A DNA stretch of 64,000 bases, from positions 4,350,152-4,414,151 of the forward strand of contig OY783218.1 of NCBI GenBank assembly GCA_963678705.1. The letters are read 5' to 3'. Positions 10,427 to 61,863 of this stretch are shown piece after piece. Numbering within the stretch: the stretch's first letter is position 1; every line of letters starts with the position of its first letter. The notes below the pieces were generated by a model, which worked only from the letters and a program-made list of their open reading frames with translations, was not told where the DNA came from and searched no databases. Source of the stretch: Panorpa germanica (lineage: Eukaryota; Arthropoda; Insecta; Mecoptera; Panorpidae). A program made the translations under genes and the position numbers.

Positions 10427-10431
10427 TTATA

Positions 10432-10514
<83 letters not shown>

Positions 10515-24439: not shown

Positions 24440-26511
24440 ATTTATTTAAAGTCGGCACATTTTCGATGTCGAATCCTAACACCGATTACCACCAGTTTCG
24501 GCCGTTAGTTGTTTCATGTTAGTAGTTTCTTTGATGTCTTAGCTTCATATGCGTGAACTACACCGTTGCCTGATAAGTCTTTTGATTAAGATTAAGTTTT
24601 TAACTTAAATAACAGCAAAGCTCAGAAAATATGGCGGTGATGCGGGAATCAAAGTCGAAGACACAGCAGTCAGTATCGGAGAATCAAATAGGTACATTTC
24701 TATTAAAACAGTGCCGGTTTCTCGAACAGGCACCGATTTTCAGGGGTCACTAACATTTCTATAGTTTAGAGAGCAATTTATTTCTTGATAACTGCGATCA
24801 CTATTAATGATTGAGTAATAAAATAGTTAACAGTTTTGAAACCAGGTGTCGCTTTCCGTGTTTTTAACTATGTAGCGGGAAGAATCTAATTATCAACTGA
24901 GCTCATCCAAAAATACTGTCACCCGCTTCCAACATAACTTCTGTTTGTCAATGAACGTTTGATTTAACCTCCAACGTGTGTATCAAATAATTGAAGATTG
25001 ACACGACAAGTTTACTACTACACGGTGGAACGAATGTTTGATTCGAATAATTTAATTATTTTATTAATTTGTTGATATTATTGACACTAACACTTTTTAA
25101 CAAGTACATAAATAAACGTTCAAGTGTAAACTTTTCAATGTTGAACGATTCGTGCAGTAGTGCATGGCATGTGGATCAAGTGGGTGGTGTGGGTAAAGAA
25201 GACAACAGGCCGAACATCGTCCAACATGAACGTTGGACACACTTAGTTTCAGCATCGGCTACACTATGCGTCCAATCATCAAGCGTTCAACGTTGGAAGG
25301 TGTTCGTAGCATCGTTTGGCGCTAGCATAACCATCACCGTTTATAAAGTGTTAAATAAAAATTAGAAGACCTCAAAACTAGTGCCCCACCAAGTTTTCGA
25401 TCCACCACTGCTTATAAAACACTCAATATTTTTCAAAAGCTATAAAAATCCACAAAATGCATAAAAGTATTCGATTATAATAGCTTATCTCCATTATGGC
25501 TTGAAAAAGAAACATTACAGTCGGCTTATCAGTTCACAATTGACACGCGCGTTGAGGTTTTTCGGGATTTCAATATATCTCTCGACATTTTGTGGGCACA
25601 TTTCCGTTGTATTTGAATGTGGAAAACCCTATGGCAAATCAATGCAAAGTCGAACTAGAAATTGACACTTAAAATGGGTGAAAAGAGAGGGTTTTATTAT
25701 GTTTTATTGATAAATAAGGATTATAACCACCGACGTAGGGTTGGAAATGATGTGGGAATACTTTCAATGTGTTACAATGGTTACAAAGATTAAAATCTAT
25801 GCGATTATTTGAAATATACGTAAAGCCACAAGCTACTAGACCTTTTTAATTTTAAAGCCAATCGTTTGCTGCGGTTTTACAGTATATTGTTCAAATATTT
25901 TTATATTTAAAAAAATCTTAATATTTAATACTTATTGTTTTGTTTTCATTATTTCATTTCGAGTGCAATATTCCCGCTAAAGAAATTTACATGTATTTCA
26001 TATTTATTTAACATAAGAAAATTTAACTTTTACATAAAATCCTTTAGTTCAATATAAGATCAGATTATTCTTTGACATAGTTTGCGTTTTAAGGTGAAAA
26101 TTAGTCTTTTTATATAAGAATATGTAAAGTTACATATCGCTTGCTAATTGCCATATTTATAAACTCAAAGAAACATAATATATAAGAAATGACTACTTGA
26201 AAAGTCTTGATTGGTACTTTGGAGTTAAAGAATTTGTAGTTAAATACCTATTGCAGATTGCCTATTAATTCATCTTACATAACTTTTTAAAGTTCTTGTT
26301 TTTAATTTAATTTATTTAACGTCGGTCTATTACCGATGCTCAGTCTTATCACCAACTAACTCCTACTTTGTTAATAGTTTTTCTTGTGGTTGTTTTAAAA
26401 TTACAAAAAAAATATATAAATCTTTCGAAAATTGAAACACCTTAAGATGCTTTTAACTATCATGACCACAATTTTTCAAATATTTCTGATTTTCTTTTTG
26501 TATCGGCAACC

Positions 26512-33336: not shown

Positions 33337-34320
33337 AAAGCCTCATTCCTCTTACTTAATTTACGCGTTTTTATTTAATAATTTAATCTAGATTTTAGGT
33401 TTTCAGGATAAGCATTCCTTGTTATGTATGTGTTTTAATTTTAATGTAGTTAATTTAATTTTAACAAATCAACAGTTGGATAAAATTGCATGTGGAATAA
33501 TTAAAAATGCTCTTTCTAATAACAATTACTAATAGAAATTGTTTTTATTTATTTATTTTAAGCAAAATATCTAGAAATGACGCTTGATGCTAAGTTAAGG
33601 TGCAAAACGCATATCAAAAAGAAAAAGGAAAAACTGAACATAAAATACAGGCTAATGGGACGACGCTCTGAACTAAACATTGGAAACAAGCTGCTCCTAT
33701 ATAAACAAGTGCTAAAGCCAGTATGGACGTATGGAGTGCAACTCTGGGGTTGCACCAAGAAATCGAACATTAAAGAAATCCAAACGTTCCAAAATAAAGT
33801 TCTACAAGGAATAGTTAATGCACCGTGGTTTATCCGCAATGACGACATACATAGAGACCTGAAGATTAACACAGTCGAAGAAGAAATCAAATCGCAAATG
33901 TTGCTTGATAGTAATGATGTTCGAAGACTTCGCAGGACTAAACCCTCGGACCTAGTAACCTAATCATGTATAATTGTTCATTGGAGCAATATCTACCACA
34001 CCGTGTAATTATAGAAACGTAAGCCTCTAGATAAGTATATCTATACTTAGTTGTAGTATTATAGAAAATAAAAAAAATGATATATTTTTGAAAACCTTTT
34101 GACATTGAACTTCTTTTAAAAATGAATCCTATTACATTTTGACAGATTGTCACATTTTGGAGGTTATAATATAAAATAGTCTTTTTTCTAAAGAAACGTA
34201 AATTAAATTAAATAAATTCAAAATTGTACAGGGAATGACTACGCATATTCCCATATGCTATACAATTTAAATTAAATACAAAATTAAAAACAAAATTAAA
34301 ACAGTAAGTGAGTATGATAC
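33337..34320 (-). mobile_element. Element C, copy 2, inverted and split by a LINE
   Basis: 33337-33540 matches the reverse complement of the right half of copies 1 and 3 (AAAGCCTCATTCC end, AATCTAGATTTTAGGTTTTC block). 34079-34320 matches the reverse complement of the left half (GTCACATTTTGGAGGTTATA block, CTTACTG end). The about 540 bp between them is a Jockey-like LINE fragment absent from the other copies. Confidence 0.8.
33541..34078 (+). pseudogene. Jockey-like LINE reverse transcriptase C-terminus, inserted in element C
   Basis: An open frame from about 33560 to 33963 encodes the region after the reverse transcriptase core: MTLDAKLRCKTHIKKKK, NKLLLYKQVLKPVWTYGVQL, WGCTKKSNIKEIQTFQNKV, then APWFIRNDDIHRDL, ending RRLRRTKPSDLVT and a stop. 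KPVWTYG-x-QLWGC and the PWxxRNxxxHRDL block mark this as the Jockey-like group. The 5' part is missing, so this is a truncated copy. The 3' end is A-rich (AAAATAAAAAAAA). The frame has no internal stop, which suggests a fairly young insertion, younger than the element C copy it splits. Confidence 0.85.
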
Positions 34321-35211: not shown

Positions 35212-35306
<95 letters not shown>

Positions 35307-35322
35307 TATGTGTGTGTGTGTG
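35212..35322. repeat. (TA)n/(TG)n microsatellite
   Basis: About 95 bases of TA repeats end in a short TG run, nearly uninterrupted. Confidence 0.95.

Positions 35323-36332: not shown

Positions 36333-36382
<50 letters not shown>
36333..36382. repeat. (TA)n microsatellite
   Basis: About 50 bases of uninterrupted TA repeats. Confidence 0.95.
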
Positions 36383-45660: not shown

Positions 45661-46714
45661 ATTTATATAAAAGGTTACATGTATTGGGTACTATCCGATA
45701 TGGAGTGTACATAACGTTGTACTTAAAATTCGACTTTGTCTACGGTTGTCACCTAAACAGAGTTCCTAAATCAGCTGAATCATTTTAAAGTGATTAGATT
45801 TGAGACTGATCAGATTAGATTAGATACATTTAAAGAGTGCTACACTGTGAGAAAGACACAGTAAAAATTGCAAGGTGACTATAGTACCTATGTGCCAGGG
45901 TTTCTTTTAGGACAAGAATTTCTATAGCATCAAATAAAAATTACTACGACTAAAATCATTTTTACTAAATATTTCTCACAGTTTCCTAATATAGTAAAAG
46001 TATCTAAATAGTTGACGTATCTAGTTAAATTACAACACTGGGTAGTAAGATTCATCAGTTTAATATAGTTTCTCCTTGCATTTATCATCTCACCAAGCGG
46101 TATTGTTCACGAATTGCACCGAACAATAAAGCGTGGATTGCAAAATAATATTTTAAAGTTATTTTACACTTTCAACAATACTTGTACGAAATCGTTTGTT
46201 ATATTGTTTTGTTGTTCTTTGTGTTTGTTACCCGTTTACACTTGCTTATATCTATATTATAGCTATTTGTTGATGATTGCAAATGTTTAGTTTACTTAAC
46301 AGTTGAAGAACTGTTTAACAATCTGTAAATACATGATGTAAAAATCATGTTGTTGTGTTGTTGAAACATTAAATATATACTAGAATAGTTATTATATTTA
46401 ATATATCTTTAACAATATGTTTGCGGGAATATTTTAGTAGTTAATTTGTTTATATATCAGGGATGGAACACCTTTTAAGATGTGTGTTGTCTGTCTTAAA
46501 TAATATATTCCCACACATTCAATAATCAAAGTTTTAGCACGGCAGGTCTGATAGAAATTTACTGAAGATTCCCACCCCATCTTTCAAAGTTCAAGTTACC
46601 TATGTGTATTTGGACAAATCAATCAAATAATTAAATTTAGTTTGTTCTGTAATCTAAATCCTCAAGTTTGGTAATATGGTATTCAACTATGAAGACGCTC
46701 AAAGAAAACTAACT

Positions 46715-46945
46715 TAGAAAGTATACAATGTGTTCAAAATAAAGAACTGAGGACTATAGTAAACACTCCTTGGTATATTCGAAACAGCGATCTCCACTGG
46801 GATCTCCAAATAGGGACCGTCGCCGAAGAAATAAAAAGATATGCTTCCAAGCATCATGGCAGGGTGCACTATCATCCGAATGACGAGGTACTCCAACTGT
46901 TGGACCAAGTTAGAAGACTTAAGAAGGAAAAGAGTATATTTTTCA
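46715..46945 (+). pseudogene. Jockey-like LINE C-terminal relic
   Basis: A frame reads VQNKELRTIVNTPWYIRNSD, LHWDLQIGTVAEEIKRY, then ASKHHGRVHYHPNDEVLQLL and DQVRRLKKEKS. This is the same protein region as 33541-34078 and 38068-38287 but a different family member (HHGRxHxHPN block). Both ends are truncated. Confidence 0.75.
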
Positions 46946-48350
46946 AATTTTTTCTTTGTATTTTCTCTTATGGCGTGGGGATTCAAGGTTACCCTTTTAC
47001 ACCCTCACCCGACATACATGACAAGATATATCATATACCTTTTTAGATTTAATATAACTAGGCTTCGTTTAGTAATGACAAATTATTTAACTGTATATAT
47101 TTAAACATGTTATAATGATAAACGCGGTGTAATGAGATGCTTGCTTCCCCCCTCCCCCTAATACCATGTTATGACTCCCCCACCCACTCTTTTCGTTTAT
47201 ATATAACGCTGATCCTGTATACTATTTTACCATCAATACTTTCATCTTACCAGCAATTTTTCATTGCGTTTAATAAAAGCTTTCATAAATATTTTCCCAA
47301 AAATTTCCCCAATTTGTTATCAATATCTTGTGCTCCTCAAACGGACCACAGCATTTCCTTTGTGCCTACGTACTTGTCTGTGTTCCATGATCACGACAAC
47401 AATAACAAAATATAATTAAAACATTATTAAATATTGTAACTAAAAATACAAATAATATTCGTCGTATACATAAGCTGATAAATTTGATAAAAAAAATTCC
47501 AAAATTTTAATAAGGTAACAAAAAAGTCTACATGTTTGTGTAGGTATAGCTTTAGCATAGATTGACTACGTTTTAAAATTAATTAATATGATCATGTTTT
47601 ATTAATTACTATGAAAAATAATTTTAAAATACCAAAACATATTGGTTTTATGAAATAATTGATAAAATATCAAATTCCTTGTGCCAGACCGCTAAGCGGC
47701 GGGATATAGCTACAGGGATAAATCAGTAATCTCCTGGACACTGGGATACGCGGGATAACAGGATGATGGGATAACTTCCACACACAACAGACGCAATTAC
47801 ACAAATATGCGTGATGTCAATACGCGAGATAGAAAACATTAAACATAAAAATAAAATACTCGTAAAAAATGTTGGTTTTTTCACAATGTGAGACAGTAAC
47901 AGTACAATCATATTAAATAACAAACATATTTTGTACACATACCGAAAAGACTATATCTCCCCCATCCCTTCCACTTTGTCACCATCCGACCTGGTCAATA
48001 TTCAAACAATTACAACAATTCATAACATTTTTTTATTTAACTATTAGAATTTGCGTACTAGCAACCTAATGATATTAAGTAAATTTTGTGTCACTGAACT
48101 ACTGGCTTCTGATTAGTGGCTCCAGTGATCCACTTCCTCCTACATTAAATTATAATTGTATGGACTTGTTTTAGTATATTAATTTGTCGGTATTTGTATT
48201 GGGAGTAAGTCTGTGGCCACACGTCTCTTTAGTCTGGTACATTTTTTAGATTTTAGCAATCTGGTTGCAAGTGAATTCTGATGAATTTGTAGTCGTTTCC
48301 GATATTTTCCGCTTTGTATGGGTGTAAGGTCTCTCTCTAACTGATGATAT

Positions 48351-50044: not shown

Positions 50045-50600
50045 ATAATTTATAATTCAATTTTACAAATTTTTAAATATTTCAATAATTCACTAATTAA
50101 TTTTGAATCACTTAACAAAAATTTAGTATTAACAGGAAAAGTTTTAATCACATCTAATATATCACTAATCAATTTTAATCTTTCTAAACTATAATTTATG
50201 TATTCAAATATAATATGATCCAAAGTTCCTTCTTCACCACAGTGACATCTATCGTCAGATTTAATATTAATTTTGTACAGGTGAGCTGGAGTTTTGCAAT
50301 GATTACCTTTGATTCTGATTATAGTTGATATAATTTTGCGGGACTTATTTCTAAACCATCTCTTCTTACTTAAATTTGTATGTAACATATAATAATCTCT
50401 TCCTCTTAACTGACTTTTGTTAATGAAATTTGTGTTTCTCAAATTGAAGTTTAATTTTTTGATTATATTAAAAGTTTCATATGCAGGTAATTTCACTTTC
50501 ATCTCAATTTTTAAATTTATTGATTCCTTTGCCAATTTATCCACAATTTCGTTTCCTCTTATTCCACTGTAGGGTGTATTACAGTTGTTTCACATGAGCA
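50045..50600 (-). pseudogene. LINE ORF2 C-terminus with RNase H end and zinc knuckle
   Basis: A 164-codon frame (50050-50544, minus strand) begins MDKLAKESINLKIEMKVKLP. In the same frame upstream, GIRGNEIV precedes DKLAKES: this GxxGNExxDxxAK block is the hallmark end of a type I RNase H domain. Downstream come YMLHTNLSKKRWFRNKSR and the zinc motif RCHCGEEGTLDHIIFEY, where the last cysteine has become tyrosine. RNase H plus this zinc motif points to an I-clade-like LINE. The 5' part is missing, with a frame break near 50575, so it is not functional. Confidence 0.8.
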
Positions 50601-55943: not shown

Positions 55944-56003
55944 CGTTCCAGATGTTTGACTATATCCTCGTAGGCAGCCCGACAGTTCTCCCAAATACCG
56001 GAT
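55944..56003 (-). CDS. dac: dachshund, 60-nt internal exon: SGIWENCRAAYEDIVKHLER
   Basis: The acceptor CTATTTCAG and donor GTATGTC bound a 60-nt exon. The first base joins AG of the previous exon to make arginine. Nineteen codons follow, SGIWENCRAAYEDIVKHLE, and the last two bases join G of the next exon to make arginine, giving HLER. This amphipathic block, immediately followed by ERIRDERGD, is the part of the window I recognise best as insect Dachshund. It lies between the Dachshund domain and the C-terminal coiled coil. It is too short to be found by ORF length. The upstream intron is 5.6 kb and the downstream intron 48.7 kb. Confidence 0.9.
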
Positions 56004-61181: not shown

Positions 61182-61187
61182 TTTATT
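61182..61187 (-). terminator. dac: Candidate intronic poly(A) signal AATAAA
   Basis: On the minus strand AATAAA lies about 156 nt after the TAG that ends the read-through frame. A U-rich segment (TGTTTTTC) follows 20-30 nt downstream. It is the first AATAAA after that stop. It would allow a shortened dac mRNA to end here. AATAAA is frequent by chance in such AT-rich DNA. Confidence 0.35.
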
Positions 61188-61342
61188 GTACAACTGATAG
61201 GGTTACCCCTTTAGTTCATCTTGCATTTATCCATGCTTACATAAATAATAAATAATTTGGCAAACTTAAATGCCAAAGTATATTAGTTTACTAGAAAATA
61301 CATATAAAAAGTTAATATTTCTATAACTAGTCCTACCCTAAC

Positions 61343-61637
61343 CTAATCTGATGTGTAGGAGGAAGATGATGGTGAGGATGGTGACGGTGATGGAGAAGAT
61401 GAAATATGATTTGTGAAATATTCAGCAGAACTGCGTCCACTATTACTCCCATTGGAGCTTAAATTTAACACCTCATCGTTATGATTGTGATTGTGACTGT
61501 GACTATGAGTTTGACTTTGACTTTGTGTTACATTTGTGTCGACATGTGGGTGAGCGAGTGGATTGGAATGAGCAGTATGATTGTTTAGCATTGCTGCTTC
61601 TGAGTAGTATAAGTAAAGCATTTGCATGAGCCAGTAC
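61343..61637 (-). CDS. dac: Possible alternative 3' extension of the dac exon (His/Ser-rich tail)
   Basis: If the donor at 61637 is not used, the dac frame stays open for 97 codons to TAG at 61343-61345. The peptide starts YWLMQMLYLYYSEAAMLNN, passes through a His/Asn/Ser/Gln-rich segment (SHSHNHNHN), then DEVLNLSSNGSNSGRSS, and ends with a Ser/Pro-rich tail. The region is visibly richer in G+C than the rest of the intron and has codon use like the exon. VLNLS recurs in the 3924-4106 exon as VLNLSKSG. The simplest readings are a retained-intron isoform with its own poly(A) site, or a longer exon using another donor. Chance low-complexity sequence (TGGTGA-type and CATGAC-type runs) keeping the frame open is the alternative. 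Confidence 0.5.
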
Positions 61638-61863
61638 CTTGCGATGGCTTCCATGCCAGGGATACCACCTCCTGGTTGATTCTTGATAATACTACCATCC
61701 GGTCTGGGAATACCATGTGCGGTCATACCAGGCGACATAAGTGCAGCATGTGCGGCTGCACCGGGATGATGATTCAATTGCATAAATTGCATGTGGTTCA
61801 AATGTGTCGGGGGTGCGTTGTACCCATTTGCCAATAGTGGTGACTTTTCCATTCGAGAGATAT
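61638..61863 (-). CDS. dac: dachshund, internal exon: PLLANGYN...LMSPGM...GMEAIA segment
   Basis: This is the first dac exon in transcription order within the window, 226 nt. The acceptor is TTTTGTTACAG. Two bases complete a codon begun off the right side, then 74 codons follow, then AG is left for the next exon. The peptide begins ISRMEKSPLLANGYNAPP, has a Met/His-rich HLNHMQFMQLNHHPG run and LMSPGMTAHGIPRPDGS, and ends GGGIPGMEAIA. The donor AAG|GTACTGG joins it in frame to the 55944-56003 exon, giving GMEAIARSGIWENCR. The LMSPG stretch resembles the LxSPG motif that follows the Dachshund domain in vertebrate DACH proteins. An ATG occurs inside the exon, but the upstream splice signal and phase make an internal exon more likely than a start. 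Dac is a nuclear co-regulator working with Eya and So in eye development and in limb patterning in Drosophila. Confidence 0.88.

Follow-up and report, generated by a model that had tools for sequence, protein, structure and literature searches.

A candidate read-through isoform of Dachshund with a 97-codon tail and an intronic poly(A) signal in Panorpa germanica

In Panorpa germanica, one exon of dac (61863-61638) ends at a weak 5' splice site across which the reading frame stays open for 97 codons, to a stop that precedes an intronic AATAAA. Our best reading, which we hold with moderate confidence, is that this arrangement would yield a regulated composite-terminal-exon isoform of Dac that carries the Dachshund domain (DHD) and lacks the PRDLS motif and the DD2 coiled coil. 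A coding tail is favoured by its frame-specific Dac-like composition, by its echo of a VLNLS/SPxPSP block of the normal protein and by the weaker donor. Dac has a central place in the development of eye, leg and brain; for the eye, its role is also described in PMC10961645. If the reading is true, a short form with the DHD but neither DD2 nor PRDLS would be a natural separation-of-function protein, and its level would be set by U1 and the cleavage factors, not by the promoter.

The window analysed here is a stretch of 64,000 nucleotides (C15:4350152-4414151) in a genome of 464 Mb in 249 contigs; window coordinates on the minus strand are given in reading direction. Four dac exons of the window, all on the minus strand, form one joint reading frame: 61863-61638 (ISRMEKSPLLANGYN...GGIPGMEAIA(R); acceptor TTACAG, phase 1 to phase 2), 56003-55944 (SGIWENCRAAYEDIVKHLE(R), the SGIWENCR block), 7250-7174 (IRDERGDVDRALALDHKPRDLSSHN, 77 nt, with PRDLS at 7198-7184) and 4106-3924 (PVLNLSKSG and SPVPSP lie here, and the tail echoes this block). 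Along the normal splice path, AG/GT at 61637 is joined to AG/A at 56003 across an intron of 5.6 kb, giving AIARSGIWENCR. The introns on either side of the PRDLS exon measure about 48.7 and 3.1 kb.

Upstream of these exons, about 158 kb past the window end and on the same strand as the 61863-61638 exon, lies a match to PF02437 (Ski/Sno/Dac DHD; C15:4572334-4572645, minus strand, E 5.4e-35). It is one of three PF02437 matches above the cut-off in the whole genome, and the open frame around it contains MDSAMDSLSTASDHSV. From its location and its likeness to Dac sequence, we take this match to be Dac and not Ski or Sno. Downstream, a search with a query based on human DACH1 returned two DD2 coiled-coil matches on the minus strand: one at C15:4346061-4346303 (E 3.5e-7), which holds five TAA within the matched stretch and seems to overrun its exon into an intron, and a second at C15:4245686-4245841 (E 6.8e-7), which holds no stops. 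If the DHD exon, the window exons and the DD2 matches belong to one gene, it would span about 327 kb.

The initial annotation had described the frame as running on past the donor at 61637 for 97 codons to a TAG, with AATAAA 156 nt further on, and we confirmed this to the base on the minus strand. The tail (61636-61346, 97 sense codons) starts with YWLMQMLYLYYSEAAMLNNHTAHS (61636-61565) and continues through a Gln/Ser/His/Asn hexamer-like tract (61525-61478), a VLNLS motif that matches a dac exon (61471-61457) and a Ser/Pro tract with SPSPSP (61402-61358), to the TAG at 61345-61343. AATAAA at 61187-61182 is the candidate intronic poly(A) signal; it is adjoined by TGTA (61192-61189), and a candidate downstream element, TGTTTTT (61164-61158), lies 18-24 nt past its end. 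A frame that is open across the unspliced donor and stops before an intronic AATAAA has the layout of a composite terminal exon. Counted from the junction codon, read-through stays open for 98 codons here and for 23, 13 and 2 at the other three dac donors. An in-frame extension of the exon by way of a later donor was considered and rejected: the two other GTs listed in the tail (those scoring above -3) are in phase 0 and do not fit the phase-2 acceptor.

A quite possible alternative is that all of this arose by chance, the first 291 nt of the intron happening to be open and Ser/His/Asn-rich by way of short repeats, with the donor always used and the AATAAA one of many in AT-rich DNA. The openness of the frame does little to counter this explanation. 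Among the GT-anchored frames of the window (both strands, the tail's own included in the pool), 21 of 6,873 reach 98 codons; in 20 stretches of 10 kb from this genome (200 kb in all), 43 of 3,342 G/GT-anchored frames (1.3%) are as open; and the six frames of the window contain a further 22 stop-free stretches that run to 97 codons or longer. Because comparable open frames turn up in all of these places, the argument that the initial annotation had built on openness is weak on its own. When the tail is shuffled, 2.4% of dinucleotide shuffles and 0.4% of base shuffles stay open (20,000 each), as do 0.08% of 20,000 dinucleotide shuffles of the intron flanks. Taken for a single exon, such a frame is moderately unusual and deserves notice, but cases like it are expected genome-wide.

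The poly(A) signal is also compatible with chance, since an AATAAA falls within 160 nt of a point in 27% of cases. In a looser test, an upstream TGTA together with a downstream G/T-rich stretch accompanies 28 of the 305 AATAAA of the window, the one at 61187-61182 among them. The donor, on the other hand, counts against chance. The GT at 61637-61636 (AAG/GTACTG) scores 0.65 bits by an approximate matrix, versus 4.06, 4.32 and 5.40 at the other three dac donors, and its positions +4 to +6 read CTG, not AGT. This is a weak 5' splice site, yet it stands at the 93rd percentile among the minus-strand GTs of the window.

The composition of the tail likewise speaks against chance. We scored it with a model built from the Dac N-terminal exon and the four window exons, not from the whole of Dac. 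The read-through frame reaches 0.231 bits per residue; read in any of its five other frames, this DNA scores no higher than 0.067. True exons score 0.282 (N-terminal), 0.51 (61863-61638), 0.397 (PRDLS) and 0.537 (VLNLS exon), and the test misses one true exon, SGIWENCR, at -0.261. Within the tail, the signal peaks at the Ser/Pro end (0.653) and is absent from residues 56-78 (0.001). For the off-exon controls used here and in the tests of phase information, codon model and window peptides, we excluded segments overlapping the four dac exons. In the 64-kb window, the tail's composition is reached by none of 412 open segments of 97 codons, which overlap, are drawn from 22 stretches and do not give independent counts, and by none of 17,620 sampled off-exon segments. 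In the 200 kb elsewhere, where segments again overlap and are not independent, 45 of 129,480 segments overall reach it, as do 2 of the 2,849 that are open, and both of these look protein-like by eye. None of the 3,342 G/GT-anchored frames in those 200 kb is both as open and so composed.

Tests for the protein nature of the tail disagree, with composition positive and the codon tests neutral or negative. When a codon model is compared with a third-order background, the tail gains 0.9 bits in total, or 0.009 per codon, which is near zero and in keeping with chance; the two true dac exons that were scored, the SGIWENCR and PRDLS exons being left out, gain 0.33 and 0.29. The tail's score is reached by 10 of the 412 open off-exon segments, and the five top segments all come from 33.6-34.0 kb, where their frame resembles by eye a reverse-transcriptase remnant. 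Synonymous codon use in the tail is -0.056 per codon, a test to which we give no weight, since true dac exons are negative as well. The phase-nucleotide information of the tail is matched by 3% of 20,557 segments and by 20% of 150 open segments, the open ones coming from one frame per strand in 9 of the 22 stretches listed; single-stretch results of the codon-model and synonymous tests likewise refer to those 9 stretches. In favour of coding, deviations within the repeat tracts fall 4, 4 and 13 times on codon positions 1, 2 and 3 (P 0.02), and GC is lower at third positions of the tail (31/97) than at first and second positions together (86/194; Fisher P 0.04). The hexamer and Ser/Pro tracts make the tail partly low-complexity, which agrees with chance, and short period-6 arrays are also present elsewhere in the window. 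The echo, repeat-tract and composition tests were designed after the sequence was seen.

Going beyond the initial annotation, we found in DEVLNLSSNGSNSG an echo of a normal-protein block that lies almost equally far from the junction. When the tail is searched against the window, its best non-self match is the dac exon 4106-3924, and the reverse search also gives this pair as best (E 0.007 and 0.02 in the two directions, without composition correction). The elements common to both are VLNLS, which starts at residue 55 from the junction in the tail and at residue 53 in the spliced protein, and SPxPSP, which starts at residues 80 and 77, respectively. The echo score is reached by 4 of 5,000 full shuffles of the tail, by 11-35 of 4,000 block shuffles of either sequence and by none of 3,084 window peptides, and score and offset are matched together by 13 of 8,000 block shuffles. 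Both the echo and its spacing speak against chance. A junction-anchored alignment is less striking, its score being reached by 140, 98 and 16 of 4,000 shuffles under three shuffle types, and a 5-mer that also occurs in the dac exons arises in 1.6% of shuffles. A supposed kinship of the first 31 tail residues with SGIWENCR and the sequence following it was rejected, as 2,343 of 4,000 shuffles reach that similarity.

The same echo could have been left by a relic, either an extension that once was coding or a copy made long ago from cDNA of the following exons, in both cases out of use and in decay. Such an origin would account for a VLNLS distance that matches in spliced and not in genomic coordinates, and the colinearity with the spliced continuation and the neutral codon statistics agree with it. 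But in the alignment of the tail with the spliced continuation little identity is seen by eye outside the two short motifs, and the codons of VLNLS differ at 5 of 5 places between tail and exon, so a recent copying of DNA does not explain the echo. In DNA where 7% of triplets are stops, moreover, a frame of this length should have acquired some if it were unused. We consider a relic, and this account of the spacing with it, very unlikely.

Under the reading that we prefer, a regulated composite-terminal-exon isoform, U1 recognition of the weak donor at 61637 would lead to splicing to SGIWENCR and to full-length Dac. Where the donor goes unrecognised, the exon would extend and become a composite terminal exon, with cleavage some 10-30 nt past AATAAA, near 61172-61152. 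The resulting mRNA should evade nonsense-mediated decay because its stop would sit in the last exon. We infer that the transcript and protein of this short form exist. The predicted protein would consist of the DHD, a linker and the 97-residue tail and, acting through its DHD without DD2- and PRDLS-dependent contacts, may modulate or compete with full-length Dac. The proposal of the initial annotation, an isoform that keeps the DHD and loses SGIWENCR and the C-terminal coiled coil, agrees with the exon and domain matches on each of these points, and as an interpretation it is partly supported. To it we add that the predicted short form would also lose PRDLS (7198-7184); at least five coding exons would be missing, those of PRDLS and DD2 included.

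In a single-sequence AlphaFold2 model of exon plus tail, residues 70-99 of 172 form a predicted helix that begins in the exon and bridges the junction into the first part of the tail; two short helices are predicted in the exon. Ten-residue means of pLDDT are 89 and 91 over residues 71-90; the mean over the whole is 54, and 94 of the 172 residues fall below 50. The predicted junction helix has no sequence similarity to SGIWENCR. Searches of exon plus tail against Pfam and PDB gave nothing significant (best E 0.16 and 0.81), Rfam (at gathering scores) and tRNA searches gave nothing, and 18 and 2 pattern matches against genome contigs and viral contigs, respectively, included none that was confirmed. 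A protein search of the organism's own genome at E <= 0.001 returned one match, the tail locus itself, so that at this cut-off the tail protein does not count as a repeated element. Among the open-access matches listed, none reports a dac isoform made by read-through or intronic polyadenylation, which does not prove its absence in print.

Composite-terminal-exon polyadenylation is known as a kind from IgM and CstF-77. In the IgM heavy chain and in intron 3 of CstF-77, a weak 5' splice site is likewise read through to an intronic poly(A) site, and a weak donor with a large intron is the reported setting of composite terminal exons in human genes (PMC3708835). The dac intron is smaller, at 5.6 kb versus 33.2 kb in human CstF-77, and the outcomes there are an altered protein for IgM and a short mRNA for CstF-77 (same source), whereas dac encodes an insect developmental regulator and is a candidate case. 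The CstF-77 short mRNAs give no apparent protein and have a feedback role, according to PMC3708835. It is highly improbable that dac read-through RNA does the same, lowering full-length Dac without a functional short protein: CstF-77 likewise pairs a weak donor with an intronic poly(A) site (PMC3708835), but attenuation needs no long open frame, and 97 codons of Dac-like composition are open here.

The composite-terminal-exon isoform, if real, would be relevant to where on Dac the CtBP contact lies, a question left open in PMC10961645. There, fly Dac binds CtBP directly in a GST pull-down, and PRDLS at residues 491-495 is proposed for this binding, with the matter of whether PRDLS does the binding left open. 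Dac of Drosophila is the product of the same gene; its DHD, PRDLS and DD2 all have matches in the Panorpa germanica genome, whereas the predicted short form would have VLNLS only, without PRDLS. The tail lacks the P at the first place of P-x-D/N-L-S (the PXDLS CtBP motif), reading VLNLS instead, and a looser pattern, [PVAIL]x[DN]L[ST], appears in 6.6% of 20,000 shuffled tails. In SOX6/EGL-13, binding to CtBP2 and CTBP-1 is disrupted when the second leucine of PLNLS is changed (PMC8816384). The tail shares the LNLS core of that motif and differs in having V for the first P and E before it. A CtBP role for the tail's VLNLS is speculation. It is tempting, if doubtful, to go further and suppose that Dac has two C-termini from one exon, both with a VLNLS...SPxPSP module some 55 residues on, such that the short form would keep one partner contact and shed PRDLS/CtBP and DD2 contacts; this would be a switch between splicing and polyadenylation within the retinal determination network.

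The dac introns of the window hold other features as well. Open frames at 33562-33963 (plus strand), 46693-47046 (plus) and 50050-50589 (minus) resemble by eye what is left of the reverse transcriptases of non-LTR elements; the last has a sub-threshold zf-RVT match (E 0.01), and the other two are without a supporting Pfam match. A 104-residue open frame at 25051-25362 (plus) has a weak Pfam match to CfaA_B_C (E 0.004), under the cut-off. Long (TA)n dinucleotide arrays occupy 10428-10514, 35214-35309 and 36333-36382.
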